From positions 1-45,967 of the IMG/VR virus record IMGVR_UViG_3300008107_000093: a DNA stretch of 45,967 bases; one strand, given 5' to 3'. The position numbers were made by a program, and so were the translations under genes. The stretch is from a virus. Of the stretch, positions 814 to 36,024 are shown piece after piece (within the stretch, counting starts at the first letter, position 1; each line of letters starts with the position of its first letter). The notes under the pieces were generated by a model. That model had not been told where the DNA came from. It made no database searches and worked only from the letters and a program-made list of their open reading frames with translations.

Positions 814-819
814 CTATAA

Positions 820-846
820 CTGGGCCCGTGAAAGTGCATCAGTAGT
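820..846 (+). repeat. junction repeat copy 1 (fused to ATG 847)
   Basis: The 27-bp core reads CTGGGCCC, then GTGAAAGTG, then CATCAGTAGT. It follows the stop of the ligase-family gene, and the next ATG abuts it. Homology extends upstream to TGACTATAA. Confidence 0.9.
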
Positions 847-1170
847 ATGAGCAACACCGTTACGATGGACCTTTCCACTGTAGACCAGCAAATCCGCATC
901 CTTGATTCACTCAATGAGATTGCGTATATGAAGGTGAGTTCTTCTAATCTTGGTGGGACTACTTCATACTTCCTGCATATCTCACTGGACAAAAAAGAGG
1001 ACTGGGTGAATAACATTTTTCACAACAGTCGCTATGCTATTTTTGCACTTCAATCCGGTAAGATTGAACTGATTGCGAAACACTATCAAATGCCTAAGTT
1101 TCGTAAGTGCAATATCAAATCTGCTGCCCAAGTTGCGGAAAAGATTGCATCCTACTGCATTAACAACTGA
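847..1170 (+). CDS. hypothetical protein, 107 aa
   Basis: The ATG sits directly on the end of repeat copy 1 (core 820-846), with no Shine-Dalgarno sequence. The product is 107 aa, soluble-looking, with no membrane segment or signal peptide. It contains a central segment (SSYFLHISL-like pattern around residues 38-48) of alternating hydrophobic residues and a basic C-terminal helix candidate rich in Ala and Ile. I do not recognise a family. It is followed 5 bp later by the next small gene, so it probably belongs to one polycistronic unit with it. Confidence 0.7.
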   Translation: MSNTVTMDLSTVDQQIRILDSLNEIAYMKVSSSNLGGTTSYFLHISLDKKEDWVNNIFHNSRYAIFALQSGKIELIAKHYQMPKFRKCNIKSAAQVAEKIASYCINN

Positions 1171-1175
1171 TTATT

Positions 1176-1400
1176 ATGACTGACGCACAAAAGATTGAGT
1201 TTATTGTTAAGTTGCTGCAAGAGACAGCAAATAAAACTCACTGCAAAGATGGTGACGATTATGAAGATTATGACTCTGCGGATGAATGGTACAATCCAGC
1301 AGATAATGGTAATTTTGATGATGCTTTTGCAGATGGAGAAATCTGTGGAGAAATAGAATATGCCCGTACTATTCTTGCAAAGATTCAAGAACTGAACTAA
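1176..1400 (+). CDS. small acidic hypothetical protein, 74 aa
   Basis: The product is very acidic, with a run of Asp, Glu and Tyr at about residues 26-40, followed by NGNFDDAFADGEICGE and a C-terminal helix. This Asn-Pro-x-Asp-Asn-Gly-Asn-Phe-Asp-Asp type pattern recurs in small cyanophage proteins as far as I remember, but no function is known to me. The gene starts 5 bp after its upstream neighbour; the leader has no Shine-Dalgarno sequence. The acidity could mimic nucleic acid or serve protein binding; that is only inference. Confidence 0.65.
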   Translation: MTDAQKIEFIVKLLQETANKTHCKDGDDYEDYDSADEWYNPADNGNFDDAFADGEICGEIEYARTILAKIQELN

Positions 1401-1430
1401 CAACTGATTCACACTTAGCATTGAACACAA

Positions 1431-1754
1431 ATGACTAATCAAGGCAAACAATGTGAAAGGTGTGGTAAAGGCACCTACGAAATCGCTGACTTGAATGATG
1501 AAATTCACGGTGAACTTCATTGTAACAACTGCGGGCACTTTAGTAAACTTAATTCTACACCCAAAACGAAAGAAATCAAGTCCGTCATTGTAACACGTTC
1601 CATTGAGTATTCTCCCGAAGCATATCTTGAATGTTGCAAAGAAGATGATGAAGAACCCACACAAGAAGGTTTCATTGAATTCATCCAAGATTGGATTTAT
1701 GATGACTTTAGGTGTGGTAACACTGCACAAGAAATCACCACTCTGAACTACTAA
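1431..1754 (+). CDS. zinc-ribbon protein, 107 aa
   Basis: The first 40 residues hold two Cys pairs, C8-x2-C11 and C31-x2-C34 (CERCG and CNNCG), a typical zinc-ribbon spacing, so zinc binding is likely. The remaining part, residues 50-107, is acidic (a KEDDEEPTQEG stretch) with a hydrophobic and aromatic helix (FIEFIQDWIYDDF). Such two-part proteins may bind nucleic acid or protein through the ribbon; no specific function is recognised. Its stop codon TAA shares an A with the ATG of the next gene (TAATG), suggesting translational coupling. Confidence 0.7.
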   Translation: MTNQGKQCERCGKGTYEIADLNDEIHGELHCNNCGHFSKLNSTPKTKEIKSVIVTRSIEYSPEAYLECCKEDDEEPTQEGFIEFIQDWIYDDFRCGNTAQEITTLNY

Positions 1755-1942
1755 TGGAAACTGCATTCGTCACGCCTAAGTCTAAGAAAGCAAAGAACAG
1801 GTTTGCTAATCTTATGGAGTCAAATCCTGAATGTTTCGTAGAACAAGACAAGGGAAATCGTTTCTTTCTGTGTTCTGCAAATAGCAAATACTTTTTCTGG
1901 GTTGACCTGAACAATGACCCAAATTGGCAAGTGGAGTTCTGA
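1754..1942 (+). CDS. hypothetical protein, 62 aa
   Basis: This short protein has a basic N-terminus (PKSKKAKNRF) and a C-terminal half rich in aromatic residues (RFFLCSANSKYFFWVDL). The start overlaps the stop of the zinc-ribbon gene (TAATG), which favours coupled translation. No family is recognised. The length, the tight spacing on both sides and the absence of an equally good overlapping frame support a real gene. Confidence 0.6.
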   Translation: METAFVTPKSKKAKNRFANLMESNPECFVEQDKGNRFFLCSANSKYFFWVDLNNDPNWQVEF

Positions 1943-1948
1943 ATCAAA

Positions 1949-2122
1949 ATGAATATGACACCCAAACTGTATGTTTTCGGCAACTATGATACAGGTGAAA
2001 TGGTATCAGTAACCGCATCTTGTCTCACTGCCGCAACTGCAAAACTTCGTGATGATTATGAATATCACAACTTCTACGTTGAGTCACTGACTACAACTGG
2101 GCCCGTGAAAGTGCATCAGTAG
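1949..2122 (+). CDS. 57-aa hypothetical protein whose C-terminus lies in the junction repeat
   Basis: The frame starts at ATG 1949 (or in frame at 1955) and encodes MNMTPKLYVFGNYDTG, a compact alpha/beta-looking sequence, then a Tyr-rich stretch. It reads straight into repeat copy 2, which supplies the final residues TTGPVKVHQ and the TAG stop (2120-2122). The next gene starts one base later (TAGTATG). The gene is the only clear case here where the repeat is protein-coding at the end of a gene. No function is recognised. Codons look natural throughout, so I regard it as real. Confidence 0.55.
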   Translation: MNMTPKLYVFGNYDTGEMVSVTASCLTAATAKLRDDYEYHNFYVESLTTTGPVKVHQ

Positions 2123-2123
2123 T
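2097..2123 (+). repeat. junction repeat copy 2 (fused to ATG 2124)
   Basis: The core is identical to copy 1, with the upstream extension TGACTACAA. It is translated as the end of the 57-aa gene at 1949, whose stop TAG is inside the repeat. Confidence 0.9.
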
Positions 2124-2465
2124 ATGACCCCCAATCGCTTCCCAATGAACTTCAACGACATTCACGATAGCATCAATCTTGCGTCCAAACTTGCCAAGGA
2201 CAATTATGATGCCCGCAATGGTATCATTGACCGTCTGAATGAGACTGTTGTTGTTGATGTTCGTTCCCGTGCATCATATATTGCTGGTGAATGTTCGTAC
2301 TATTTTCCGCTGCACAATCAGAACGGCGATAAGATTAACGAGGTCAAACTCTATTGTCGTTGTTCTCCCACTGTCAAAGGAGGAATTCGTTATTCCTATA
2401 AATTGAATGGTAAGGTCATTCCTCGTCATAAAATTGCCCAACGAATGAGTGATTTGGGAGTCTAA
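2124..2465 (+). CDS. hypothetical protein, 113 aa
   Basis: The ATG is fused to repeat copy 2 and follows the TAG of the upstream gene by one base, so re-initiation is plausible. The protein has a helical N-terminus (residues 8-30) and a beta-rich centre and C-terminus (TVVVDVRSRASYIAGECSYY, then KVIPRHKIAQRMSDLGV). Basic residues are frequent towards the end. No membrane segment is present. I do not recognise the family. Confidence 0.7.
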   Translation: MTPNRFPMNFNDIHDSINLASKLAKDNYDARNGIIDRLNETVVVDVRSRASYIAGECSYYFPLHNQNGDKINEVKLYCRCSPTVKGGIRYSYKLNGKVIPRHKIAQRMSDLGV

Positions 2466-2479
2466 AACTTCTATGTCAA

Positions 2480-2623
2480 ATGAACACTCACACCTCCTAC
2501 TCAATGCCTAGTTTTTCAACCAGAGTTCTTGCCTTTCTGAATACTCTTACTGATGAACAGTTAGATGATTTCAGTGACGATGACATTATGCAACACATTC
2601 TAAATCAAGAGGAAAACCAGTGA
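2480..2623 (+). CDS. small acidic protein, 47 aa
   Basis: The frame from ATG 2480 gives 47 residues ending in an acidic helix (TDEQLDDFSDDDIMQHILNQ). This Leu-Thr-Asp-Glu-Gln-Leu-Asp-Asp pattern resembles short helical proteins common in phage early regions, without known function. It overlaps the GTG start of the next gene by four bases (GTGA), a classic coupling arrangement. It is short, so confidence is moderate. Confidence 0.55.
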   Translation: MNTHTSYSMPSFSTRVLAFLNTLTDEQLDDFSDDDIMQHILNQEENQ

Positions 2624-2928
2624 AAAAGTATCAAGAACTGGAACAAAAGATTCGTGAACTTCAACAAGAAGTAAATCGCCTGAAAGAAGAAGAAAAAGAG
2701 AACAAGATTCCTGATCTTTTTAATCTTGAACCCACACTTGAAGTTCTAAAGAATCCAAGGAAGAATTATGGTCGGTTGATTTTATCTTTTGAATGGGTTC
2801 TTACTCCTCAAGGTCATACGCATTGGGGAAACCTTTGCAGCGGAAACAAACCACTGACCGACCAGGATATTATTCAACTTCAAAAGTGGGTGATTCTTTA
2901 CTATCAACAACAACAGAAATCCAAATGA
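2620..2928 (+). CDS. coiled-coil protein, tandem paralogue A (102 aa)
   Basis: The start is GTG, overlapping the upstream TGA, and AGAGGA just before it can act as ribosome binding site. Residues 1-30 (MKKYQELEQKIRELQQEVNR and following) form a strong coiled coil. The C-terminal half ends in DQDIIQLQKWVILYYQQ. The next gene encodes a clear paralogue with nearly identical ends and a diverged middle. The two genes overlap by four bases (ATGA). The coiled coil suggests self-association or pairing with the paralogue. Function is unknown. Confidence 0.75.
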   Translation: MKKYQELEQKIRELQQEVNRLKEEEKENKIPDLFNLEPTLEVLKNPRKNYGRLILSFEWVLTPQGHTHWGNLCSGNKPLTDQDIIQLQKWVILYYQQQQKSK

Positions 2929-3218
2929 AAAAGTATCAACAACTAGAAGAGAAAATCAAAGAACTTCAACAAGAAGTAGAGCGTCTGAAAGAAGAAGAAA
3001 AAGAGAATAAACTTCCTGATTATTTCAAGATTGAAAAAGTTCTTGAGTTTCTAGAAGATACCAGTAAAGTTTGGTTGATTGATGAATGTTTTACTTGGGA
3101 ATCTACTCCTCAAGGTGATGACTACTGGTGCGAACTTAGTGAGGAACTACGCCCAGTGAATGACCAGGATATTATTCAACTCCAGAAGTGGGTGATTCTG
3201 TATTATCAACAGAACTGA
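2925..3218 (+). CDS. coiled-coil protein, tandem paralogue B (97 aa)
   Basis: ATG 2925 overlaps the stop of paralogue A. I chose it over upstream in-frame starts because the protein then begins MKKYQQLEEKIKELQQEVER, aligning with residue 1 of paralogue A. Both share the coiled coil, the KEEEKENK linker, a TPQG motif near residue 65 and the ending DQDIIQLQKWVILYYQQ. The middle has diverged (about residues 33-60). A rho-independent terminator lies about 90 bases downstream, so this is probably the last gene of a transcription unit. Confidence 0.75.
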   Translation: MKKYQQLEEKIKELQQEVERLKEEEKENKLPDYFKIEKVLEFLEDTSKVWLIDECFTWESTPQGDDYWCELSEELRPVNDQDIIQLQKWVILYYQQN

Positions 3219-3306
3219 AAATGAGGAAGAAGTTTGCCTCAATTCACAAACAAAAGTGACTTCGTAGAGTGTGAATAATTCAATAGGATAGGTGATTGGG
3301 TGTATG

Positions 3307-3336
3307 AAGCAAGGACTGGTAATCCTTGCTTTTTTT
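3307..3336 (+). terminator. rho-independent terminator
   Basis: A perfect 9-bp stem AAGCAAGGA/TCCTTGCTT with a 7-base loop is followed by a T tract (3330-3336). It ends the unit that contains the tandem coiled-coil genes. Confidence 0.85.
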
Positions 3337-3485
3337 ATTGCTTATGAAAGATAAAAGGTATTAAAAACAATTAAAAAGCCATTTTTAAATATAAACGTGT
3401 AATTAAGCTGTGTGATACTTATTATGATTAAAGGGTGATTTTGATAAGAATTCGTATCAAATAGGGTTGGTCATTTAATACACTC

Positions 3486-3547
3486 AGAACCCTTAATAAT
3501 CCATTTAAATCCTTCTAGACCCCTTAGTATTCTCATTTAAATCCAGC
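3486..3547 (+). repeat. two imperfect 31-bp direct repeats
   Basis: Units at 3486-3516 and 3517-3547 both begin AGAMCCCTTA-like and share ATTTAAATCC near the end. They adjoin head to tail in an intergenic region, consistent with tandem binding sites or replication slippage. Confidence 0.5.
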
Positions 3548-3661
3548 CAGGTCTTGTGATCTTAGCGAGCGTACCATAAGAAACGCAATTTGTCAAGGGA
3601 TAACCACCGCCGCGAGATTTTGAAATCCTCATAAGGGACTCACAAAAGTATCAGAGGTGCT

Positions 3662-3669
3662 TATAAATA
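3662..3669 (+). promoter_or_regulatory. T4-type late promoter motif
   Basis: A perfect TATAAATA octamer lies 70 bases before the gene at 3740. In T4-like phages this box is read by the late sigma factor gp55 with gp33 and the sliding clamp. Confidence 0.6.
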
Positions 3670-3679
3670 CTCCACGAAC

Positions 3680-3708
3680 TTGACAGAATCCTCAAGTTGT
3701 CGTACAGT
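3680..3708 (+). promoter_or_regulatory. sigma70-like promoter
   Basis: A perfect -35 TTGACA (3680-3685) is followed after 17 bases by TACAGT (3703-3708), a 4/6 match to the -10 consensus. It would start transcription about 25 bases before the ATG at 3740, so the gene may have both early and late transcription. Confidence 0.6.
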
Positions 3709-3739
3709 AGCTACACGCACTAATTGGAGCAAAGTTCAG

Positions 3740-3910
3740 ATGGTTTCGTCTTACGCACTGGCACAAAAGAAGAAAGTTCGTGTAACCCTGGAACTCAATG
3801 TGTTTCAGGATTTTGATGCAAAACAGATTGATTTTGAAAAACTGTTTGAATTGGAACCTGCCGAAAGTGTGCAGGTCTACGTTGAGGATTTCTCTGAGAA
3901 TCCTTGGTGA
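3740..3910 (+). CDS. small conserved-looking protein, 56 aa
   Basis: ATG 3740 is preceded by GGAG at about 10 bases, one of the few clear ribosome binding sites in this region. I prefer it to an in-frame upstream TTG at 3680, which coincides with the -35 box. The product has a basic N-terminus (ALAQKKKVRVTLELNV) and an acidic C-terminus with repeated Phe-Glu and Glu-Pro residues (FEKLFELEPAESVQVYVEDF). A single gene between a double promoter and a terminator suggests independent, probably strong, expression. Function is unknown. Confidence 0.75.
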   Translation: MVSSYALAQKKKVRVTLELNVFQDFDAKQIDFEKLFELEPAESVQVYVEDFSENPW

Positions 3911-3960
3911 TTTCTATAACGCTCTGAGACCCCTGTAGAATCGCCTACAAGGGGCATCTG

Positions 3961-3998
3961 AACCCTTGGATATACTTTGGGATACCCAAGGGTTTTTT
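3961..3998 (+). terminator. rho-independent terminator
   Basis: Stem AACCCTTGG (3961-3969) pairs with CCAAGGGTT (3986-3994), followed by T residues to 3998. A second, imperfect stem (CCCCTGTAG with CTACAAGGGG) lies just upstream, so the two may act in tandem. Confidence 0.8.
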
Positions 3999-4030
3999 AT
4001 ATGAAATGAAGAGTTCCAGAGTGACTACAA

Positions 4031-4057
4031 CTGGGCCCGTGAAAGTGCATCAGTAGT
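4031..4057 (+). repeat. junction repeat copy 3 (fused to ATG 4058)
   Basis: The core is identical to copies 1 and 2. It lies between the 3961-3998 terminator and the first gene of the next unit, so no upstream gene end is attached. Confidence 0.9.
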
Positions 4058-4468
4058 ATGAACACTCCCCAAACCACGATGGAGATTCTTCAATATACTC
4101 AAGCACTCTGCGAATCGCTTGAGGTTGATTATCGTCTCTACTGTACAAGGTCTCACCGTCATTGTGTTGAGCGCAATCAAGATGCACACTATCACAATAA
4201 GTGTCTGCAGGAGATTGCGAATGGTACTTATACCTTCACCACTACCTTTGAGATAGTTGAAGGTCGCAAGTATTACAAGGTTGTGATGCTTACTTCTGGG
4301 AATCGGAGTGTTCATTGCTTTGTGAACAAGACGACTGGTGATGTATTGAAATCTGCCTCCTGGAATGCACCTGCAAAGGGAGTCAGATACAATCTTCTGA
4401 ATAAAGAATCGCGGGAGAATTGCTACCGCTATGCAGACTGGAGTGGTCGCTATCTTTACCTTCGTTGA
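4058..4468 (+). CDS. conserved phage hypothetical protein, 136 aa
   Basis: The start is fused to repeat copy 3. The N-terminal part is Cys- and His-rich (CTRSHRHCVERNQ). The C-terminal part, from about residue 65, has the pattern EGRKYYKVVMLTSGNRSVHC, then VNKTTGDVLKSASW, then GVRYNLL and YRYADWSGRYLYLR. I recognise this second part as a recurring phage protein family that also occurs alone, but I know no function for it. Being first after a terminator, it may head its own transcription unit. Confidence 0.75.
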   Translation: MNTPQTTMEILQYTQALCESLEVDYRLYCTRSHRHCVERNQDAHYHNKCLQEIANGTYTFTTTFEIVEGRKYYKVVMLTSGNRSVHCFVNKTTGDVLKSASWNAPAKGVRYNLLNKESRENCYRYADWSGRYLYLR

Positions 4469-4508
4469 GTTCATCTTTCTTTTCAATTCACCTTACTTGA
4501 TTAAAACA

Positions 4509-4832
4509 ATGTTTGAACAATCCTTCCCCCCTGCTGATGCTATGGTCAATCAACTCTCCAAGATTGAGTATAAGAAGCATTGGCAACAGTTTGTGACATT
4601 TACTCTGACTGTGTTTGCTATTGTAACTGTTCTGGCACAAGATGCATACAAGCGTGTGACTGAATGGTATCAGAATGGCGGCAAAGAGCAACTGATTTCT
4701 TATGCTCACCGTTCCGCACTGTTTATCAATAAGCATACAGGTCTTGGTAATAAGTTCTATGCTGCACTGGTTTCTGTACATAATCGGATTGAACTTTCCG
4801 CGCATCAGGTAGATGATGCTTTGAGTGCCTGA
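4509..4832 (+). CDS. hypothetical protein with one membrane segment, 107 aa
   Basis: ATG 4509 follows a Shine-Dalgarno-less, pyrimidine-rich leader. One hydrophobic stretch near residues 28-44 (FVTFTLTVFAIVTVLAQ) would span the inner membrane; the rest is soluble with charged and amphipathic helices. No signal peptidase site is evident. Members of such single-pass phage early proteins may alter host membrane functions, but no family is recognised. Confidence 0.65.
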   Translation: MFEQSFPPADAMVNQLSKIEYKKHWQQFVTFTLTVFAIVTVLAQDAYKRVTEWYQNGGKEQLISYAHRSALFINKHTGLGNKFYAALVSVHNRIELSAHQVDDALSA

Positions 4833-4854
4833 GTATAACTTATTCTTCACAATC

Positions 4855-5025
4855 ATGACTGAAAAAGAAATTCAAATTCGGGCACAAGTTCTTCCTCTGA
4901 TTGATAGTCTGGCATCCAATTTGTTTGATGATGGACAGGCAATCTATGGGCGCAAGTTGGATAGAATTCTCATGAAGCTTGAGAGTATTCTAAATGAGAC
5001 TTCCGACCAGTCTAAACCATTCTGA
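4855..5025 (+). CDS. hypothetical helical protein, 56 aa
   Basis: I chose ATG 4855 because upstream in-frame starts overlap the preceding gene. The product is mostly alpha-helical (EIQIRAQVLPLIDSLASNLF, then GRKLDRILMKLESIL) and soluble. It resembles in length and style the 5094 product, from which it is separated by repeat copy 4. No function is recognised. Confidence 0.6.
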   Translation: MTEKEIQIRAQVLPLIDSLASNLFDDGQAIYGRKLDRILMKLESILNETSDQSKPF

Positions 5026-5043
5026 ATGAGTGCCTGAGTTAAA

Positions 5044-5070
5044 CTGGGCCCCTCAAACTGCATCAGTAGT
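5044..5070 (+). repeat. junction repeat copy 4 (ATA variant)
   Basis: The core carries CTCAAACTG in the variable middle. The expected ATG reads ATA, and the gene starts 23 bases further on, at 5094. Confidence 0.9.
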
Positions 5071-5093
5071 ATAAGCACAACCGACACAAACAA

Positions 5094-5261
5094 ATGGCAA
5101 CCCTGAGCACTGAAAAGACCTATACTCTGATTCTTTCTGAGGATGAAATTCGGATGATTTTCTCTTCGGTTGAGAATGCTCTGGAGTCCAATCTGTTCTC
5201 TATGCAATATGAAAAGATTGCCAAGGATTTTGCAGAGGAAATTGCCCCTGAACTGATCTGA
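5094..5261 (+). CDS. hypothetical protein, 55 aa
   Basis: This short frame lies between repeat copies 4 and 5, each within 23 bases of its ends. The sequence begins MATLSTEKTYTLILSEDEIR and continues as a helix with an amphipathic pattern (FSSVENALESNLF) and an acidic end. Its position as the only content between two repeat copies makes it look like one unit of a modular cassette. Function is unknown. Confidence 0.6.
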   Translation: MATLSTEKTYTLILSEDEIRMIFSSVENALESNLFSMQYEKIAKDFAEEIAPELI

Positions 5262-5262
5262 A

Positions 5263-5289
5263 CTGGGCCCCTTAAAGTGCATCAGTAGT
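5263..5289 (+). repeat. junction repeat copy 5 (ATA variant)
   Basis: The middle is CTTAAAGTG. It follows the TGA of the 5094 gene by one base, and the next start is displaced to 5320. Confidence 0.9.
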
Positions 5290-5319
5290 ATAAGCACAAC
5301 CCCATCGCTACTTTCCCCA

Positions 5320-5631
5320 ATGCGTAAGATTGAAACCCTGATGAACTCTGCCATTCAGAATGAGCAGAACTGGTCTCAAGATAACACCACTGTTACTACT
5401 CTGAATGGTGTATCTTCTGTCCGTCTGCATGGCAATCTGATTGCTGATATTGGTGATACCTGGATTCGTCTTTTTGACGGTGGGTATAAATCTAAAACCA
5501 CCAAAAGCCGACTGAATGCTATTCTTGCAGTTCACGGCAATGGTGATAAAGTTTACCAGAAGAACTTCAACTGGTACGTTGAAACTAACGGCACTGAAGT
5601 TCCCTTCTCCAATGGTCTCACTCTTCGCTGA
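5320..5631 (+). CDS. conserved phage hypothetical protein, 103 aa
   Basis: The start follows repeat copy 5 by 30 bases, with CTTTCCCCA directly before ATG. Residues 20-60 show the pattern WSQDNTTVTT, then VSSVRLHGNLIADIGD and WIRLFDGGYKSKTTKSRLNA, followed by VYQKNFNWYV. I recall this as a recurring small-phage-protein family, with beta strands and a conserved Leu-His-Gly-Asn motif, of unknown function. No membrane segment is present. Confidence 0.7.
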   Translation: MRKIETLMNSAIQNEQNWSQDNTTVTTLNGVSSVRLHGNLIADIGDTWIRLFDGGYKSKTTKSRLNAILAVHGNGDKVYQKNFNWYVETNGTEVPFSNGLTLR

Positions 5632-5641
5632 GTGACTACAA

Positions 5642-5668
5642 CTGGGCCCCTCAAAGTGCATCAGTAGT
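5642..5668 (+). repeat. junction repeat copy 6 (fused to ATG 5669)
   Basis: The middle is CTCAAAGTG. The upstream extension TGACTACAA is present, and the ATG follows directly. Confidence 0.9.
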
Positions 5669-5905
5669 ATGAACACCGATTCTCAAATGAACTTCGATTT
5701 CGTTAAGTCTGCCTCCGCTGCTGGTCTTAATCACCAGTGGAATCTTGTCTCTCATTATGTACTGCACAAGTCCAACTATCCCGGAATGACTGTTAGCGAA
5801 ACCATCGCGTTCCGTGATGCACTTAAGGTTGAACTTGACGACCGTTGGGAGAATGGAGACAAGCAAGCTTTTGAGGAAATGATTGCACGAACCTTCGGTC
5901 GCTGA
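5669..5905 (+). CDS. hypothetical protein, 78 aa
   Basis: The start is fused to repeat copy 6. The protein is helical, with the segments NHQWNLVSHYVLHKSN and VSETIAFRDALKVELDDRW, and a mixed-charge C-terminus (FEEMIARTFGR). It is soluble and has no cysteine. No family is recognised. Repeat copy 7 starts 6 bases beyond its stop. Confidence 0.65.
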   Translation: MNTDSQMNFDFVKSASAAGLNHQWNLVSHYVLHKSNYPGMTVSETIAFRDALKVELDDRWENGDKQAFEEMIARTFGR

Positions 5906-5911
5906 GTGAAA

Positions 5912-5938
5912 CTGGGCCCGTCAAACTGCATCTATAGT
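5912..5938 (+). repeat. junction repeat copy 7 (most diverged)
   Basis: The middle is GTCAAACTG, and CATCAGTAGT has become CATCTATAGT, followed by GTA in place of ATG. The gene start is displaced to 5981. Confidence 0.85.
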
Positions 5939-5980
5939 GTAGGGGCACAATTCCCACCACAATTCTTTACTCTAACTCTC

Positions 5981-6193
5981 ATGTTTGATTTTGATCAGTT
6001 TCTCAAGGATCTTCTCTCTGAAGGTTTTGTCTGGTCTGATGATTATCTGGTCAAGAAAGATAACAACGGTGTCGTTCATACCTATACTCCCAACGAGAAT
6101 GATTGTTCCTATTTGCATCAACAATTCCGTTGCATTGTAGGTGTAGGAAATGAGTTGATCGGTAGCAATCGCATTGTCTGCACTTTCTCCTGA
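5981..6193 (+). CDS. hypothetical protein, 70 aa
   Basis: I start the gene at ATG 5981 rather than at an in-frame GTG (5906), because the extra 25 codons would be translated repeat copy 7 plus a C/T-rich leader. From 5981 the product begins MFDFDQFLKDLLSEGFVWSD and continues with beta-type sequence (YLVKKDNNGVVHTYTP). Function is unknown. Confidence 0.6.
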   Translation: MFDFDQFLKDLLSEGFVWSDDYLVKKDNNGVVHTYTPNENDCSYLHQQFRCIVGVGNELIGSNRIVCTFS

Positions 6194-6229
6194 TTCCTTT
6201 ACACTTACTCCAGGGGTTCTAAGACATAA

Positions 6230-6256
6230 CTGGGCCCCCGAAAGTGCATCAGTAGT
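6230..6256 (+). repeat. junction repeat copy 8 (ATA variant)
   Basis: The middle is CCGAAAGTG. It is followed by ATAAGGACAA and a displaced start at 6278. Confidence 0.9.
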
Positions 6257-6277
6257 ATAAGGACAAACGAAACCAAG

Positions 6278-6469
6278 ATGATCACCGAATCCTACATCTC
6301 TGCTCTCTACTGGTTCGCCTACAGTGTTGTTAACCTTGCAGAGCAGTTTAACATTAAGCACTCAATGGGTGACTGGTTCAACTTCGAAATCGGTGCAGAT
6401 GTGTTTCACGATGATATCTGCCGTGCCCTTGCTGTTGATACTGAATCCAAGCAAGTCTACGGGTTCTGA
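6278..6469 (+). CDS. hypothetical protein, 63 aa
   Basis: The start follows repeat copy 8 by 21 bases. The N-terminus is aromatic and moderately hydrophobic (YISALYWFAYSVVNLAEQF), short of a convincing membrane span; the rest is acidic with FEIGADVFHDDICRAL. It is not recognised. The next gene follows after a G-poor, pyrimidine-rich leader rather than a repeat. Confidence 0.6.
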   Translation: MITESYISALYWFAYSVVNLAEQFNIKHSMGDWFNFEIGADVFHDDICRALAVDTESKQVYGF

Positions 6470-6511
6470 TACCCAATCCGTTTCCCACTAACTAACACTT
6501 TTCTTCCCCCA

Positions 6512-6757
6512 ATGACTAACACCTACCAGACCAATCTGACCGACCGCACCTATAACGGTTGGACCAACTATGAGACCTGGAATGTTGCTCTCTGGATTGG
6601 CAATGATGAGGGTCTGTATAACCTTGCCCGTGAGTGTGGTGATTATCAAACCTTCCTGAATGAGGTCGGTGTGGGATACTCTACTCCTGACGGTGTGAAG
6701 TTTGCCGATCCGAAAGTTAACGTGATTGAGATTAACTCTGACGTGTTTGATTTCTGA
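6512..6757 (+). CDS. DUF7249-like phage protein, 81 aa
   Basis: The sequence YNGWTNYETWNVALWIGNDE near residues 14-33 matches a widely distributed phage motif, Gly-Trp-x-Asn-x-x-Thr-Trp followed by a Trp-containing helix, which I associate with DUF7249; the family number is from memory. The function of this family is unknown to me. The start is preceded by TTTTCTTCCCCCA, without Shine-Dalgarno sequence. Repeat copy 9 begins 38 bases after its stop. Confidence 0.7.
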   Translation: MTNTYQTNLTDRTYNGWTNYETWNVALWIGNDEGLYNLARECGDYQTFLNEVGVGYSTPDGVKFADPKVNVIEINSDVFDF

Positions 6758-6795
6758 GTGGCCAGTTACACTTAAGAGTTCCCAGTTAACAACAA

Positions 6796-6822
6796 CTGGG
6801 CCCGTCAAAGTGCATCAGTAGT
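6796..6822 (+). repeat. junction repeat copy 9 (fused to ATG 6823)
   Basis: The middle is GTCAAAGTG. Its left end takes part in a local inverted repeat CCCAGTT/AACTGGG (6781-6787 and 6794-6800). Confidence 0.9.
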
Positions 6823-7020
6823 ATGACGAACGATACCAAGATGACCCAAGAGCAAGCACAAACCATCAACAACTTTTTCACGGTTGATGAGTGGGATGCC
6901 ATCTATTCTGCAATGGGTGATTATGCTAACTACGGTGATGATGAGTCTGACGTTGCTGATAGTGTCCGCCTGAAGATTGCCAAGTTGGTTGCACTGACTG
7001 AGCACAACATTTCCATCTGA
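6823..7020 (+). CDS. acidic hypothetical protein, 65 aa
   Basis: The start is fused to repeat copy 9. It begins MTNDTKMTQEQAQTINNFFT and has an acidic centre (YGDDESDVADSVRLKIAKL) ending in a helix. It is soluble, with no cysteine. No family is recognised. It is the last gene attached to the repeat; downstream genes of the same cassette have ordinary G-poor leaders. Confidence 0.65.
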   Translation: MTNDTKMTQEQAQTINNFFTVDEWDAIYSAMGDYANYGDDESDVADSVRLKIAKLVALTEHNISI

Positions 7021-7056
7021 ATCACACAAACTCTTCGCTCCTTAGTTAACACTCCA

Positions 7057-7614: not shown

Positions 7615-7620
7615 TAGTCT

Positions 7621-9640: not shown

Positions 9641-10042
9641 ATGCCTTTAGAACGGGTAAGTAAAGGTTTCAAAGATCTGAGTATGACATTTCAGGTCAAC
9701 CCAATTAACTATGATCTCATTGCTCTGAAAAACGAGACTGCAATTGCCCGTTCTATCCGCAATTTGGTGCTTACATATCCTGGCGAAAGATTTTTCAATC
9801 AAAATCTGGGTTCAAAAGTTAGTCGGTCTCTTTTTGAGAATATTGATGATATTTCTTCATCAATCATCAAAGACGAAATTGAAAATACTATTCGAAACTA
9901 TGAACCTAGGGTAAATTTAATCGAAGTAATAGTTAGTCCAAACTACGATAGTAATGAATTTAACGTTACAATCAACTATCGCATCGTAGGAATTGACGTT
10001 CTTCCTCAACAATTATCATTTGCACTACAGCCAACAAGATAA
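9641..10042 (+). CDS. 25: baseplate wedge protein gp25
   Basis: The product is 133 aa, close to the length of T4 gp25 (132). The family signature is visible: SKGFKDLSMTFQVNP, then DLIALKNETAIARSIRNLVL and TYPGERFFNQNLGSKVSRSL, with C-terminal beta strands. Gp25 is the small lysozyme-like-fold subunit that joins gp6 in each baseplate wedge and helps prime sheath assembly. The stop codon shares its last base position with the gp6 start region (TAA then ATG), so the two are translated together. Confidence 0.95.
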   Translation: MPLERVSKGFKDLSMTFQVNPINYDLIALKNETAIARSIRNLVLTYPGERFFNQNLGSKVSRSLFENIDDISSSIIKDEIENTIRNYEPRVNLIEVIVSPNYDSNEFNVTINYRIVGIDVLPQQLSFALQPTR

Positions 10043-11953
10043 ATGGCATTAGTTAATTTTACTAATTTAGACTTCGACCAAATAAGATCCTCAATTCGCG
10101 AGTACTTAAGAGCGAATTCAAATTTTACTGACTATGACTTTGAAGGATCAAATCTCTCAACACTCATTGACGTTTTAGCATATAATACCTACATTTCCTC
10201 ATACAATGCTAATATGATTAGCAATGAGGTTTTTATTGATAGTGCAACTCTCAGGGAAAATGTAGTCTCTTTGGCAAGGAATATTGGATATGTTCCCCAT
10301 TCTCGCTCCTCTTCAAAGGCAAATATTTCATTTTTTGTAGATACAACTGGATTTTCGACTAATCCTCTTACCCTAACTCTTAAATCCGGGGTTGTTTGTA
10401 CAACCAATACAACTTTTGGTAATCAAAGTTTTTCCTTCATAATTCCGCAAGATATAACAATTCCCATAGTGAATGGAATTGCTTTATTTGAAAACATAAA
10501 CATTTTTGAAGGAACATTCGTAGTTAATAATTTCACGGTAGATGCAAATAACCCAAATCAAAGATTTATCTTAGACAATCCAAATATTGACATAGATTCT
10601 ATTAATGTTTTTGTCAGAGATACTCAATCAAGTACTATTAGAAGATCCTTCAAATTATCAAAAAATCTTTTTCAGATTAATTCAGAATCAAGTGTTTTCT
10701 TCATTCAGGAAATTGAAGATCAGAGATATGAATTAATTTTTGGTGATGGAATTTTTGGGAAAAAACTTGAGAATTTAAATTATATTGAAATCTCTTATAC
10801 TATCACAAATGGGCCGGCGGCTGATGGGGTATCATCATTTTCATTTAATGGTCGTATTGTTGATAATAACAATAGAGTTATCACGTCTGGCATTTCTCTA
10901 ATCACAACAAATTCTTCCTCACAAAATGGAAGAGAAATAGAATCAGTAGAGTCTATTAAAAAGTATGCTCCAAGAAAATATTCTGCGCAAAATAGAGCTG
11001 TAACAGCAACTGATTATGAGACAATCATTCCGACAATCTATCCCGAGGCAGAATCTATATCTGTTTTTGGTGGAGAAGATTTAAGTCCTCCAAAATACGG
11101 AAAAGTTTTTATTAGTATAAAACCAATTAATGGACCTTTTGTTTCCAATCAGGTTAAAGATAACATTATAAACTCTTTGCGAAGGTATGCTGTTGCGGGA
11201 ATAGTACCTGAAATTATTGATCTAAAATATCTCTACATCGAATCCAACACCACTGCATATTATAATTCGAATTCTACATCCGATCCCAATTACCTAAAGG
11301 ATATTATTCTAACGAATATAAAGAATTATGCGAATTCAAAAGAACTTAACAAGTATGGAGCAAGATTTAAGTATAGTAAATATTTAAAAATCATAGACGA
11401 TACTAATACTGCAATCACTTCAAATATAACCAAAATAGTAATACGACGCGATTTGAGGGCAGAAGTGAATAAATTTGCCGACTATGAGATTTGTTATGGT
11501 AACGAATTTCATATTAAAAATTATTCTGGATATAATATTAAGTCTTCCGGTTTCAATGTATCAGGAATAAATGATACTCTTTATTTGTCTGACATTCCTA
11601 ATAGTGATGGATTAACCGGAAGTATTTTCTTCTTTAAATTACAATCATCCAATACTCCAATAATTGTAAGAAAAAATGTCGGAAAAATTGACTACAAAAA
11701 AGGAGAAATAAACCTGTACCCAATAAATATAACTTCTACGGCAAAATCATCATATTCGTTCCCTATAATTCAAATTTCAGCAGTTCCAAAGTCAAATGAT
11801 GTGATCGGATTGCAAGATTTATATTTACAACTAGATATTAATAATAGTTCGTTAAATATGTTATCTGATGAAATTTCTTCTGGTTCAGATATATCTGGAT
11901 CAACCTATAAGTTTACATCAAGCTACACTAACGGAGACCTTGTAAGAATATAA
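10043..11953 (+). CDS. 6: baseplate wedge protein gp6
   Basis: The 636-aa product has the gp6 (baseplate J-like) architecture and length (T4: 660). The N-terminus FTNLDFDQIRSSIREYLRAN, then LSTLIDVLAYNTYISSYNAN, is diagnostic. The J-like core includes a YSAQNRAVTATDYETIIPTI region and FGGEDLSPPKYGKVFISIKP near residues 315-365. Gp6 dimers link the wedges into the iris-like ring of the baseplate. The gene directly abuts gp25 and is followed after 4 bases by the giant wedge gene. Confidence 0.95.
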   Translation: MALVNFTNLDFDQIRSSIREYLRANSNFTDYDFEGSNLSTLIDVLAYNTYISSYNANMISNEVFIDSATLRENVVSLARNIGYVPHSRSSSKANISFFVDTTGFSTNPLTLTLKSGVVCTTNTTFGNQSFSFIIPQDITIPIVNGIALFENINIFEGTFVVNNFTVDANNPNQRFILDNPNIDIDSINVFVRDTQSSTIRRSFKLSKNLFQINSESSVFFIQEIEDQRYELIFGDGIFGKKLENLNYIEISYTITNGPAADGVSSFSFNGRIVDNNNRVITSGISLITTNSSSQNGREIESVESIKKYAPRKYSAQNRAVTATDYETIIPTIYPEAESISVFGGEDLSPPKYGKVFISIKPINGPFVSNQVKDNIINSLRRYAVAGIVPEIIDLKYLYIESNTTAYYNSNSTSDPNYLKDIILTNIKNYANSKELNKYGARFKYSKYLKIIDDTNTAITSNITKIVIRRDLRAEVNKFADYEICYGNEFHIKNYSGYNIKSSGFNVSGINDTLYLSDIPNSDGLTGSIFFFKLQSSNTPIIVRKNVGKIDYKKGEINLYPINITSTAKSSYSFPIIQISAVPKSNDVIGLQDLYLQLDINNSSLNMLSDEISSGSDISGSTYKFTSSYTNGDLVRI

Positions 11954-11957
11954 TAAA

Positions 11958-14900
11958 ATGACAGAAACCAGAATCAAAATCAGTTCTATTGTTGAAAATC
12001 AACTTCCACAGTTTGTTAGAGAGGAATTTCCTCTTGTTTCTGAATTTTTATCACAATATTATATTTCATTAGAAAGTCAAAGTGGAGTAAATGATTTACT
12101 TCAAAATATAGACCAATATATTAAAGTAGATCAATTAACCAATTTAATAGACTATACAGTTTTAACTTCAGATGTAACATATTTTGATTCTACTATAAAC
12201 GTAATTTCAACCTCTGGATTTCCTGATGAATATGGTTTATTGCTAATTGATTCCGAAATCATCACATACACATCAAAAACTTCTACAACATTTGAAGGAT
12301 GTGTTCGTGGATTTAGTGGTACTACTTCATATGAAATAAAAGATGAATTCGTATTCACAGAAACAGAAGTACAAGAGCATAGTTTTATTGTAAACGGTGC
12401 CCCAAATAAGGTTACAAACTTAAGTATTCTTTTTCTTAAGGAATTTTTAAATAAAGTTAAAAAACAAATCACACCTGGGTTTGATGATAGGGAGTTATAT
12501 TCGGATCTAGATGAAAGATTGTTCATAAAGCAATCAATAGATTTTTACTCATCAAAAGGTACTGATAATTCCTTTAAGATTTTATTCGGTGCATTATACG
12601 GACAGAATGTTGAGGTAATAAGGCCAAGAGATTATTTGATTCAACCATCAGATGCTCAATATAGAATTACATCAGATTTGGTTGTAGAATCTATTGAAGG
12701 AAATCCTGAAGATATTGTAAATAGAACTCTATACCAAGACCAAACATCATTTATAAGCTCCGCGCAAGGAACTATTACAAAAGTAGAGAGAATTAGAAGA
12801 GATTCTAAAGATTATTATGTCATTAGTTTGGACTCTGATTATAACAAAGATATTGGTTCTGTTGGGTCTATTTTTGGGAAATTTACTATTCACCCAAAAA
12901 CAAAACTAATTTCTAATATAGTATCTGGATCAACTACTTTAGAAGTTGATTCTACGGTTGCATTTCCACAGAATAACGGAAACCTTATCATTGATCTTGA
13001 AAATGGGACTTCGTTATTTGTAACGTATAAGTCAAAGAACTTAAATCAATTTTTAGGTTGTTCTGGAATTTCTCAAGATATTTTAGCATCCACAGAAGTA
13101 AAATCGGATTTCTTTGCATATGGCAATTCTTCTGATGGAATTGTCAAGATTAGAATTTTGGGTGTTCTGTCTGAACTAGAATTACCAACGGACACTAAAT
13201 TATATTCAAAGGGAGATACTGTAAAAATAAAAACTTTGGGTATAGATTTAAATGACTATAAATCTAATAATTGGTTTTTCAATATTCCAGTAAAGTATGA
13301 CGTAAAATCTATACACTTACTTGATATCTCAGATAAATCTTACAAAGTTGATTTATATTATACACATTCTCTTAGAGTAGGGGACTATGTAACATTAATC
13401 TCATCAACTGGAAGAGAGCAATCTGGTTATGTAGTATCATTTAATAATGAAAAGTCATTTAGTATTCAATTTGGATCAGAAAATCTAGCATTAGATGTAA
13501 ATTTAAGTTATATTGCTAGAAAAAACCTATCAAAGGTCTCTTCGGATAATTATCCATCAGTAAATCAATATATTTCAAACGTACAGAATGTATATTATAG
13601 TAACAATAAGTCATTATATGTAACTTCCCCCTCTCTTCCCACATATTTGAATAGAAATATAAGTGTAAGCGATAGATCTATAACATTTAGTGGGTCTTTT
13701 GATGGGGAAATTCTGGATTTTGGATCTCCTCATGGATTTTATACCGGGGATTCTATTGTATACAAACCAACAACAAATAATACATTAGGAATTTCTACCG
13801 GAGTTTATTTCGCAAAGAAAGAAAGTGAAACTAAATTAAAACTGGCAAGAAGTAGAAGTAATATTTTTACTAATAATTTTATCACAGTAAGCGGCATAGT
13901 AACAAATGCAAAATTTGAATTAACAGATTTTACATATGGAGATTTAAGCACACAATTATTAGAATCCCAAAAATTAATCAGAAAAATTTCAGAACCAGAA
14001 ACTGATAGTAATGTTTATGAAACTATCCCTGGACTGACTGGAATTTTTGTAAATGGAGTTGAACTACTTAACTACAAATCAAAAGATAATGTTTATTATG
14101 GTCCTATAGAAAATATTATTCCTATAGCACCTGGATCTGGGTACGACGTAATTAATCCACCAATATTATCAATAATAGATCCTGTGGGGGCAGGGGCGAG
14201 TGGATATTGCTCAGTAATTGGCAGCCTTAACAGAATTGATATTATAGATGCCGGATTTGATTACGTCGAACAACCTACAATTGAGATTGTTGGGGGAAAT
14301 GGGTACGGGGCATCGGCAAAGGCAAATTTAATTTCATTTGACCATACTTCAAGTTTCAATTCTCAGGGGTCTGCAAAATTAGTCGAATTAAATCCAATTA
14401 ACACCATCGGATTCTCCGATTATCATAAATTTAGGGATCTTGAGGAGGTTGTTTATATAACTGATTCTCAAATTGCTTTGGGAGGATTATTCGAAAATTC
14501 GACTTATTTTGTTTCTGTTCAGGATGCATACAATATTAAATTGCACAAATCCTTTTATGATGCAAGTGTTGGTATTAATACGGTAGAATTAACTTCGTAT
14601 GGAGTCGGAAATCATACATTTAAATCTAGAAATAAGAAGAAAAAAATTGGATCTATTACTGTACAAGATGCGGGGATAGGATATCAGAATAAATTAACTT
14701 CTACTGAAATAAGTGGTATTAGTACAACATCAGATATAATTACAATATCTAATCATGGATACAATAGCGGAGAAATAGTTGTATATAACGCAACATTGTC
14801 CCCGATAGGAGGATTATCCTCCTCCACTTCATATTATGTAACTAGAATTAACAGTGACCAATTTAAATTGTCCCAAATTGGAATTAATACGCTTGGGATT

Positions 14901-17900
14901 TCTACTACATTCTATTATGAATCAAAGCAATATGTAGATTTAACCTCTGTGGGCGCTGGAGTTCATAAATTTAACTATCCAGAAATTAAAGTATCTGTTA
15001 GTGGGAGAATTGGAGTTTCTACAATTTCAAATCAAAATTTTGGTGCCATAATCCAACCAGTTTTCAGTGGCGAAATACAATCAGTATTTGTAGAATCTGG
15101 TGGTGAAAAGTATGGGTCCGAAGACATTTTAAATTACAATAGACAACCTCTTTTTGAATTGAATTCTGGTTCGGGAATTCAATTAAAACCAATTATTTCC
15201 CAAGGCAAAATTGTTGATGTATTAATCAACAGTTCTGGAAGTGGTTATAATTCGGTGCCAAATATTGAGATAATTGGTGATGGTATAGGTGCTTCATTAA
15301 CACCTATTTTCTCAAATGGGTCTCTATCCGAAATTAAAATTATCAATGGAGGAATAGGTTATAATCCTTCAAATACATATATTACAGTAACATCATCCGG
15401 ATATGGTGCAAAATTTGAAGCACAAATTAAACCTTGGAAGATTAATTTAGTAGAAAGATTGATCCAAAATTCCCAAATACCAGATGATGATGGAATTCTA
15501 ACCTCTGGATTAAATGGCGATTATGGTCTCGAATATACTCATGCATATTCGCCCAGAAATTTAAGATCCTCGGTGCAGGCATCTTTCTTTAAAGAGGGGG
15601 AAAAACTATATGTGCCAGATTTGCAGTTATTTAATAATAAAGAACAATTATCATATGCACATTCTCCAATTATTGGATGGGCATATGACGGAAACCCAAT
15701 ATATGGACCATATGGGTATTCATCAAAACTTGGAGGATCCGTTAATGCTGTAAGAACTGGATATAAATTATCAGACTCAGTAACTGAAGATAGACCAAAA
15801 ACTTCTTTATATCCTAAAGGATTCTTTGTTGAAGATTATGTTTATGTGGGTAATGGTGATTTGGATGAGCATAATGGAAGATTCTGCATTACTCCAGAAT
15901 ATCCAAATGGTATCTATGCATACTTCTCTACTATTAATGGGGATTATGTAGAATCTTCGGGTATGTTTATGAACTATAGACGCCCAATTTTCCCTTATGT
16001 GTTGGGAAATTCTTACAAATCAAAACCAATCGAATTTAATTTCAATAGGGAATCAAATCAAGATCATATTGATATAAATCAAACGGACTGGAGAAGAAAT
16101 ACTAAACCATATGGTATTTTGGATAATCCAAATTCGTATGAATTTCTTTTAAATCCAAATAATATTAAACTCCAAAATTCAACCATAAAATCAGTATCTA
16201 CAGGATCTATAGATTTTATAAAAATCATTTCCCCCGGAAATGATTACAAAGTAAATAATAAAATAAATTTTGATTCTTTACCCTATAGTGATAGTGATAG
16301 TGCTAGGGCTAAAGTTTCTTTAATCTCCGGAAAATTAATATCCCAAATTAGCGTAGGAACTTCTATATTTGATGATGTTAAATTTTATCCAAGCGATAAG
16401 GAATTTATTGGATTTACATCTGTCCCCCATAATTATTCAAATAATGATCTAATCACTATCACTGGCGAATATGATTATCAAAAATCTGCCAATATAAGTG
16501 TATCTAACAATACACTCACAATAACTTCAGGTGTAGGATCAGCCCAATATACGGGTTTAGTAACTTACTTTTCAGTTTCTGGCAATTTAAATTATCCAAA
16601 TATTGGAGAAAATGATATTTATCAAATAGGAAATGAGCAAGTAAAGATCTTAAATGTTGATGCACAGTCTTCCAGAATAAGAGTACTTCGTAACCAAAAT
16701 AATACCTCAGGAATAGTAACATACACTGCGGGTTCTATTTTAAAAGAAAATCCTAGAAAATTTAAAGTCAATTTTGGTATTTCCACTTCATATAATTATG
16801 AAATTAATAGGGAATTCTATTTTGACCCTAAAGAATCTGTGGGATTGGGAACAACATCAGGCGTAGGAATTGTAAGCACCATTTACTTTTCTAACCCAGG
16901 CGTAGGAATTACTCAAAGTACTATTCCAACACAATCAATTTATATTAGGAATCACAATTTAAATACTGGAGATTCTGTAATTTATTCTGCAAATGGAGGA
17001 TCAAGAATTTCCGTATCAACTAATGGATATTCTAGTTTCCAACTTACAGATAACTCTATTGTCTATGTCGCTAAAATTACAAATGATTTGATTGGATTAT
17101 CGACAAATAAAATTAGTATTGGTTCAACGGGAACTTTTGTTTCTGCTGGATCTACTCCAAGTAATATTTTATATTTTACTTCAGTTGGATCGGGAAATAC
17201 TCACAGTTTCAAAACAAATTATACAAATACATTAACGGGACAAATTTCCAAAAATGTTGTTACTGTTTCTACGGCAGAAACTCACGGACTTTCATTGCGG
17301 GATGAAGTTTTTATTGACGTAAAATCTGGACTTTCCACAACATTTGTGGTTAAGTATGATGACTACAATCGAAGATTGCTGGTCAATCCAAGAGAATTTT
17401 CTTCTATAGATCTTGAAAATAATATCATAACTATTGATAATCACGGATATTATACAGGACAGAAAGTTTTATATACCTCAGATACCCCTGCAACAGGACT
17501 ATTAAATGAAAGTTGCTACTATATTGTAACTATTGATCCGAACAAAATCAAATTATCGGATAGTTATTACAAATCAACTAAAAAAATACCAGAAGTAATT
17601 AATATTACTTCTTCTACTCCTGGTACAATTTCCCCAATCAATCCACCTTTAAAGGTGATAAGAAATCAGAATGTTATTTTTGATCTCTCAGATCCTTCGT
17701 TGTCATTTGTTAGTAACTACATTACATATCCGGCATTTGATTTTAAAATTTATCTTGATGAGAAGTTTGCGATGGAATTTGATTCCACATTCACTTCTCC
17801 AATTTTTGAAGTATCTAAAACTGGCGAAGTTGGAATAGACTCTACTGCAAAAGTTGTTTTATCAATAAATCAAAATGTCCCTGGTACATTATACTATAAT

Positions 17901-23927: not shown

Positions 23928-23930
23928 ATA
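23923..23930 (+). promoter_or_regulatory. late promoter for gp8
   Basis: CATAAATA overlaps the TAA stop of the giant gene, 16 bases before the gp8 ATG. Confidence 0.5.
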
Positions 23931-23946
23931 GATAAAAAACCGTAAA

Positions 23947-25497: not shown

Positions 25498-25503
25498 AGA
25501 ATT

Positions 25504-33321: not shown

Positions 33322-33328
33322 TTTAATT

Positions 33329-33553
33329 ATGGAATACTTTAAGGTAAAGGACAGGGATCATTTAATAAGAGATTGTAACTCAAATGCGATAGTGAACACT
33401 GACGTTGAGAGTTACAATACATATATTGAGAATTATAAGAGAATATATAAATCAAATCAAAAAATAAAAGACCTTGAAAATGATATAAGCGAAATTAAAA
33501 CCGATTTGACTGAAATTAAAAACTTATTGAGGAATTTGGCAAATGGATCCTAA
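33329..33553 (+). CDS. small coiled-coil protein, 74 aa
   Basis: The C-terminal 40 residues (QKIKDLENDISEIKTDLTEI and following) form a heptad-type coiled coil. The N-terminus FKVKDRDHLIRDCNSNAIVN is conserved-looking: I recall the same start, with a coiled coil, in small proteins of related phages. It overlaps the next small gene by 11 bases. Its place between the giant fibre protein and the neck genes suggests a virion or assembly role, unproven. Confidence 0.75.
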   Translation: MEYFKVKDRDHLIRDCNSNAIVNTDVESYNTYIENYKRIYKSNQKIKDLENDISEIKTDLTEIKNLLRNLANGS

Positions 33554-33713
33554 TCAAATCTCACTTGAGAATATTACAAAAATGTTTGAATATGAAAAGG
33601 TTGCAAGAGATATAGATAGTATATCTGACATTGACACTTTGAGAAATTTTGCAAAATCATATGCTAAATTATATCTCAGTCAACAAGAAGCAATTGCTAA
33701 TCTCAAATTCTAA
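33543..33713 (+). CDS. small helical protein, 56 aa
   Basis: The frame from ATG 33543 overlaps the end of the coiled-coil gene, and its TAA shares one base with the gp13 ATG (TAATG). The product is helical (LENITKMFEYEKVARDIDSI, then TLRNFAKSYAKLYLSQQEAI). Tight overlaps on both sides support a real, translationally coupled gene. It may pair with the coiled-coil protein just upstream; function is unknown. Confidence 0.7.
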   Translation: MDPNQISLENITKMFEYEKVARDIDSISDIDTLRNFAKSYAKLYLSQQEAIANLKF

Positions 33714-34558: not shown

Positions 34559-34562
34559 TAAA

Positions 34563-35972: not shown

Positions 35973-35976
35973 GTTA

Positions 35977-35984
35977 TATAAATA
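35977..35984 (+). promoter_or_regulatory. late promoter for gp15
   Basis: A perfect TATAAATA begins 5 bases after the gp14 stop, 41 bases before the gp15 ATG. Confidence 0.7.
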
Positions 35985-36024
35985 TTAGTTATTAGATTAT
36001 CACAACAATAATAAGGTCAATCAT

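Follow-up and report, generated by a model that had tools for sequence, protein, structure and literature searches.

The window, a stretch of 45,967 nt of IMG/VR virus record IMGVR_UViG_3300008107_000093, is a fragment of a T4-like cyanomyovirus (Kyanoviridae) in which nine copies of a short two-part DNA element stand before small genes. The element is very probably a promoter that precedes a dozen or more small early genes in T4-like cyanophages. Judged by its sequence, the upstream half (CTGGGCCC, the box) is a genome-specific address and the remainder is a core shared between phages, a division that lay beyond the view of the original prediction for this DNA. That these promoters form an early class with an exchangeable address box is considered likely with good confidence. 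Reading of the element by an injected phage protein, F65, is rated slightly better than even, and the promoter class and its reading by injected F65, weighed jointly, are considered fairly probable. Early expression of the array genes is suggested by their position and by the known genome layout. Early and middle transcription control in T4-like cyanophages has been called unclear (PMC2984593), and a literature search that included few subscription papers returned no description of the element.

All nine repeats of the original prediction were recovered at their places on the plus strand (chance expectation 0.03), with the core match exact in eight of the nine, and a search of the window allowing up to three mismatches gave no further copies. 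As had been proposed, the repeat keeps to the block of small genes upstream of gp25, with no copy in the virion block, and the S-SM2 array is placed likewise. Searches of the window and of relatives found the copies essentially in one region, in one orientation and before genes, not scattered at random. The assignment to a cyanophage also holds: gp15 has a 67% match to S-SM2, and the gene order gp25-gp6-gp7-gp8-VrlC-gp13-gp14-gp15 at window 9641-37026 is the same as at 61-89 kb of S-SM2. Three descriptions stood in part. The 27-bp repeat exists, but the conserved stretch is longer, about -2 to +36 when the C of CTGGGCCC is position 0. The 9-base variable part does vary, but it is not free, being AAAG with few permitted changes. 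The copies lie at gene junctions, but the copy at 2097 is not strictly intergenic, a frame at 1949-2122 crossing its box and stopping at a TAG within the element.

Exchangeable box and shared core

A core scan of IMG/VR yielded 29 stretches, followed by a whole-contig search with a position weight matrix refined on the 29 contigs. This gave 161 distinct copies of the window-type element with scores of 27-61 bits; in the reversed-sequence control the best score was below 0, compared with a lowest accepted score of 27 bits. The consensus is WWCTGGGCCCSTGAAAGTGCATCAGTAGTATRAGCACMAM, and GGGCCC, AAA and TGC are nearly invariant in window-type copies. The sequence at positions 23-28 is TAGTAT, with TAATGT/TAGTGT in a sub-class, and agrees with the -10 hexamer TANNNT in the window clade (T 0.98, A 0.96, T 0.97). 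A -35 TTGACA was not found; the spacing fits, but the slot holds the phage-specific box. The T4 late promoter TATAAATA is absent from the elements, and Rfam gave no match at E<=1 for window positions 1-10000. Among side observations, the first two box bases have decayed in about half of the copies of contig L014 (TAGGGCCC, ATGGGCCC, TCGGGCCC), with GGGCCC retained. A sub-class in L030, G004, G006, L035 and other contigs has TAATGTAAG, TTATGTAAG or TGATGTGAG, variants that place a stop codon directly after the embedded ATG, and precedes a recurring gene set, e.g., the MDxFDD 45-aa family.

Isolate relatives were found through a repeat search in syntenic arrays; blastn of one copy against isolate phages gave no match because the box differs between phages. 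S-SM2 carries AAGGGGGGTCG-CCTAAAGCGTCCC-TATAGTATGAGCAC in 12 copies, SynMITS9220M01 TTACTCACC-TCTAAAGTGTCCC-TATAGTATGAGCA in 12 copies, S-B05 ATTACTCACC in 14 copies, and P-TIM68 GTTAGTTACC-TCTAAATTGAYTT-ATTAATGTAA in 13 copies. Near-complete genomes thus hold 12-14 copies, in a single orientation and in one region except for a few in G001 and S-B05. The core across these viruses is AAAGYGTnnCTATAGTRTRAGCA, with TATAGTRT in S-SM2, SynMITS9220M01 and S-B05 and a looser form in P-TIM68, and the box of 9-10 nt always lies 13 nt upstream of TATAGT. This form of the element was not seen in Bellamy, S-SCSM1, S-CAM9, Syn9, S-PM2, P-SSM2, P-SSM4, ACG-2014f, S-SRM01 or B23, and a scan of viral contigs for the P-TIM68 core pattern yielded no relatives.

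IMG/VR was scanned with the shared core AAAGYGTNNCTATAGTRTRAGCA and the box read at each locus, and copies were counted with a tolerant core matrix. Among the matches listed, there were 626 copies in 98 sources, two of them on the opposite strand, with one in the reversed control. Among these same matches, the box differed at 0.92 of 10 positions within a contig and at 5.13 of 10 between contigs, and the core at 4.05 of 23 within and 5.49 of 23 between contigs. At least 29 majority box types were counted, the window's CTGGGCCC being one of them. The 190,789 bases of S-SM2 contain its 10-mer AGGGGGGTCG 12 times, always within an element and never on the other strand. Neither a guide RNA nor an antisense box sequence was found elsewhere in S-SM2 or SynMITS9220M01; the small number of additional box matches in P-TIM68, S-B05 and G001 suggested no guide, and the guide RNA candidate was rejected.

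Some loci depart from this arrangement. The short contig L223 mixes boxes, with three GTTAGTTACC and one AACTGAAGCC, and is possibly recombinant or an assembly join. At 52.1-56.0 kb of P-TIM68, several copies run on into TAATCAAGGAATgAAATTATGA, a leader that is nearly identical between them and has a Shine-Dalgarno sequence, so that element and gene start are separated in that Prochlorococcus phage. In S-B05 (MK799832; 40,399-40,500 of the record and 156 kb), uvsW and two elements are placed at a great distance from the main array and there is an annotated repeat at a former contig end, which suggests a misjoined assembly.

The folding suggested for the repeat was not upheld. Neither inverted repeats nor covarying pairs were detected in the element, and mutual information was limited to adjacent positions; dependence between neighbours only gives no sign of RNA stems. 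The proposed ACTG/CAGT pairing fails on this ground, and the hairpins tried (ACTG/CAGT, GTGC/GCAC and CTGA/TCAG) were rejected, their changes being uncompensated. A role for the self-complementary GGGCCC was also rejected because the same slot in relatives holds AGGGGGGTCG, TTACTCACC, GTTAGTTACC and other boxes, none of them palindromic.

Probable promoter geometry and the F65 protein

The geometry of box and TANNNT would match a -35/-10 pair, with conservation fading near the predicted start. Each copy would be a promoter for the adjacent small gene or genes, its box 13 nt from a core that ends in a -10-like TATAGTRT/TAGTAT, and host RNA polymerase would read the core. Six of 206 copies have an intrinsic terminator whose end lies 0-30 nt before the box; among them are the window copy at 4031 and L030 copies with distances of 7 and 0 nt. 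Gaps this short offer hardly any space for a further promoter. The distance from element to start codon varies from 0 to about 120 nt, unlike that of a ribosome-binding signal. At the same spot, the orthologues in Bellamy, S-SCSM1 and S-CAM9 are preceded by different promoter-like repeats that come with a Shine-Dalgarno sequence, and ACG-2014f, P-SSM2 and S-PM2 have AGTGGCACA-(38-40 nt)-TATAMT in the same early arrays. Control of gene expression, one of the roles offered in the original prediction, is likely. The AGTGGCACA unit with its Shine-Dalgarno leader was recorded at L167-L168 (ACG-2014f, 40-63.5 kb, with 14 clear copies), at L161-L162 (P-SSM2) and at 20.7-21.6 kb of S-PM2; in some copies the preceding gene's terminator lies between box and -10.

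Gene content was compared between five genomes with the element and five without it. F65 (SSM2_065, 193 aa) was present in all five of the former and in none of the latter, and was the sole gene to divide them cleanly. A tblastn search found F65 in 10 of 50,697 phage records, namely the known element-bearing phages and two unannotated single-cell viruses. The expectation drawn from F65 held in AG-345-O18, where an S-SM2-type element was then found; the AG-345-E15 fragments do not cover the array. Another family, F59 (T4-GC 89), tracked the element in the first ten genomes and was dropped because it is present in P-SSM2 and S-SRM01, where this element type was not seen. A virion RNA polymerase of the N4 type was also considered: the gp7 and VrlC-like giants, the two window proteins checked, have no RNA polymerase domain and no DxDGD.

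The F65 proteins are about 200 aa long and basic, with a net charge of about +30. Nearly all of 37 non-redundant F65 proteins begin with MKTFQEF/MKTFSQF..EA, resembling the capsid-targeting start MKTYQEFIAEA of T4 ipII/ipIII (AF158101), and TAAATA-type late promoter motifs precede both F65 and gp25. AlphaFold predicted one long and one short helix for the C-terminus with good confidence, the C-terminal helix having a predicted local distance difference test (pLDDT) score of 92-95. T4 internal proteins are packaged by means of a capsid-targeting signal, and injection is known for at least IPI* (PMC3012670). F65 may be a virion-carried factor that reads the box. Packaged in the virion, it would be injected along with the DNA, and its C-terminal helical tail would bind the box of its own phage, switching on the early genes at once.

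Covariation was measured across the 37 proteins, with the box scored from all copies in a contig. Similarity of the 10-50 C-terminal residues correlated with box similarity (r=0.65), compared with -0.05 to 0.11 for N-terminal windows. The partial Mantel correlation was 0.54 for the C-terminus given the N-terminus (p=0.0005) and -0.07 for the N-terminus given the C-terminus (p=0.82), although the sequences are phylogenetically non-independent and the permutation corrects for this only partly. Pairs with similar N-termini and different C-termini shared 0.34 of the box, as against 0.67 of it in pairs with different N-termini and similar C-termini. Among 32 array families the F65 C-terminus ranked highest (0.67); conserved genes reached up to 0.47, and the uvsW, MKNTHL and phrog_818 families were near 0. 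Residues of F65 appear, then, to covary with the DNA site, and linkage may contribute.

Several observations count against F65 as reader. It belongs to no PHROG and no recognised DNA-binding family, and its C-terminal model had no match in PDB. It was found in 52 of 113 element-bearing fragments, the rest lacking it perhaps because they are short. The gene, itself part of the array, usually ends just before an element, its stop codon tens of bases away in most contigs, and this adjacency of its 3' end could add to the covariation by linkage. Nor does the window itself contain F65; its gene is in contig G006, about 11.4 kb upstream of window base 1, and is followed there by an element. G006 almost certainly adjoins the window on the left within one and the same phage population, as it overlaps window bases 1-126 at 100% and is bridged by L018, which is 99.9% identical to both. 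G006 adds 13 copies, bringing the population to about 22. L018, L032 and L034 are 99.9% identical pieces.

Embedded start codons and rival explanations

Five window copies run straight into ATG, as originally noted, and in all five a second in-frame ATG follows 18 or 21 nt past the first. The second is usually, though not always, the native start where homologues are comparable, e.g., in the phrog_818 gene. A group of observations on the first ATG sits poorly with a promoter. Of 80 copies, 73 have this embedded ATG (position 27) in the reading frame of the gene (binomial p about 3e-27), and it is the sole start of the MKNTHLQHPED family (S-SM2, SynMITS9220M01, L028 and L030) and of the NPYV family. 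The geometry typical of sigma factors, with transcription beginning 6-8 nt past the -10, suggests a transcription start at about 34-35 (33-36), downstream of that codon, and the place of the ATG in several genes speaks against such a start. The L030 sole-start copy comes right after a terminator, and the first S-SM2 copy (42.7 kb) about 12 nt after a late gene adjoining the tail-fibre block, so read-through would hardly supply the start codon in these two places. The sole-start ATGs imply either a start at or before position 27, or the classic 33-36 with some genes expressed by read-through. The former, which would make the transcripts leaderless or nearly so, is modestly favoured over the latter.

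The same ATGs speak for a 5' untranslated or translation-initiation signal in polycistronic early mRNAs, bound by a phage or host RNA-binding protein (a RegA-like operator) or recruiting ribosomes without a Shine-Dalgarno sequence. The element does lack such a sequence, as first described, an embedded ATG that is out of frame is often killed (ATA, GTA, ATC) or stopped at once (ATGTAA), and RegA is conserved in cyanomyoviruses (PMC2984593). This explanation is nevertheless judged unlikely, given the variable distance to the start codon, the terminators immediately upstream of several copies, the lack of covarying RNA structure and the other promoter-like repeats that occupy the same position before the relatives' orthologous genes. 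Somewhat less unlikely is a promoter read by host RNA polymerase with a phage factor other than F65, whose covariation would then come only from linkage of its 3' end to the element. The nearby stop codon, the moderate phylogenetic box correlation of conserved genes and the absence of a recognised DNA-binding domain speak for this. However, the MKNTHL and phrog_818 genes start at the element and still correlate at about 0, the element was not followed as cleanly by any other gene family, and, since the box was scored from all contig copies, linkage to one copy is insufficient.

The original prediction also offered a recombination seam for small-gene exchange, and part of this stands in a single clean case. 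A 131-bp deletion distinguishes L018 from G006 (reverse coordinates 30826-30956), contigs that are otherwise 99.9-100% identical. It reaches precisely to the first box base and removes the 3' part of a small gene; a reading of this pair as a gene replacement was rejected. Homology also ends within elements on the left in 64 of 283 cases and on the right in 72 of 261, as against 2.9% of sequence, but these counts are inflated because the repeat itself extends alignments, and no claim of strong recombination at elements is made from them. A seam would have no need of a fixed two-part architecture, a single orientation or a genome-wide change of box, and that the repeat is mainly a seam, with effects on expression secondary, is very improbable. 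A mobile or selfish repeat without regulatory role would account for many near-identical copies within a genome. It is scarcely credible for a repeat that keeps to one region and one orientation, always before genes, that is carried by the same orthologous genes in different phages, and that has no element-like ends and no scattered copies.

The window and known systems

The features of the window are collected in Table 1. The gp7 baseplate protein at window 11958-23927 has 3989 aa with a YHYH domain, and gp7 is similarly large in related phages.

Table 1. Elements and other features of the window.
Feature	Position	Strand	Remarks
Element 1	818..856	+	Box CTGGGCCC 820-827, core end 846; ATG 847, second in-frame ATG 865
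Element 2 (2097-2123)	2095..2133	+	Upstream frame 1949-2122 stops at internal TAG; ATG 2124, second ATG 2145
Element 3 (4031-4057)	4029..4067	+	Downstream of terminator; ATG 4058, second ATG 4079; gene phrog_818
Element 4 (5044-5070)	5042..5080	+	ATA type; gene start ATG 5094
Element 5 (5263-5289)	5261..5299	+	ATA type; gene start ATG 5320 (phrog_554)
Element 6 (5642-5668)	5640..5678	+	ATG 5669, second ATG 5687
Element 7 (5912-5938)	5910..5948	+	Two mismatches (CTATAGTGTAG), GTA type; gene start ATG 5981
Element 8 (6230-6256)	6228..6266	+	ATA type; gene start ATG 6278
Element 9 (6796-6822)	6794..6832	+	ATG 6823, second ATG 6841
Terminator-like hairpin and T run	3960..3998	+	Ends about 30 nt upstream of element 3; free energy (dG) -15.1, hairpin 3960-3995
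Small open reading frame array served by the nine elements	847..7020	+	Function mostly unassigned
Virion block without element	9641..37026	+	gp25, gp6, gp7, gp8, VrlC-like, gp13-gp15 by S-SM2 synteny

The likeness to the start-associated sequences (SAS) of cluster K mycobacteriophages, drawn in the original prediction, is apt in logic. Cluster K genomes have 11-19 SAS copies in one orientation, in the non-structural half and near the starts of small genes, and the consensus of the extended start-associated sequences (ESAS) differs between subclusters (PMC3203893). The present element likewise keeps one orientation and serves non-structural genes only. The SAS is a 13-bp GGGATAGGAGCCC with a Shine-Dalgarno core 3-7 nt from the start, whereas the element has no Shine-Dalgarno sequence and lies 0 to about 120 nt away. 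It also lacks the paired 17-bp inverted repeats of the ESAS, and it differs from both in its rigid spacing of box and core and in a box replaced genome-wide in at least 29 forms.

T4 middle promoters have a MotA activator box at a fixed distance upstream of the -10 and stand before many prereplicative genes, a layout that they share with the element. Its boxes are unlike MotA boxes and differ between phages, and cyanomyoviruses are without MotA and AsiA (PMC2984593). The AGTGGCACA-(38-40)-TATAMT repeats resemble the element in occupying the same early small-gene arrays, with many repeats in ACG-2014f; they differ in having another box, another spacing, a strong -10 and a Shine-Dalgarno leader, and their box is invariant in the phages examined. 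Virus-wide intergenic repeats are also present in halovirus HF2, where nine cloned repeats all had promoter activity (PMC8707807). HF2 is an archaeal virus with AT-rich motifs, and the abstract on it mentions no genome-specific exchangeable box (PMC8707807). F65 is like the T4 internal head proteins in its MKTF.EF..EA start, its basic character and its late-type promoter. The injected T4 IPI* is an anti-restriction protein (PMC3012670), unlike the box-reading role proposed for F65.

The fullest form of the proposal is a private early-promoter code, in which the tail of a virion-packaged and injected F65 reads the box that all early promoters in its own genome have, and some mRNAs are leaderless; the chance of this being right in all parts is put a little below even. 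Its proposed counterpart is the logic of herpesvirus VP16 and immediate-early promoters. To our knowledge, no T4 internal protein reads promoters sequence-specifically. With a box and a tail that change in concert under such a code, the early genes of one phage would stay unresponsive to the factor of a co-infecting relative. The arrays would offer a clear case of a whole regulon that changes its address while its genes stay. They also supply a well-defined promoter class together with its target genes and a candidate for its reader, in the laboratory isolates S-SM2, SynMITS9220M01, P-TIM68 and S-B05, and a natural collection of at least 29 box types with their matching protein tails would constitute ready-made orthogonal promoter/activator pairs. 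If F65 is indeed injected, sequence-specific control of early genes would be delivered by the phage particle itself.

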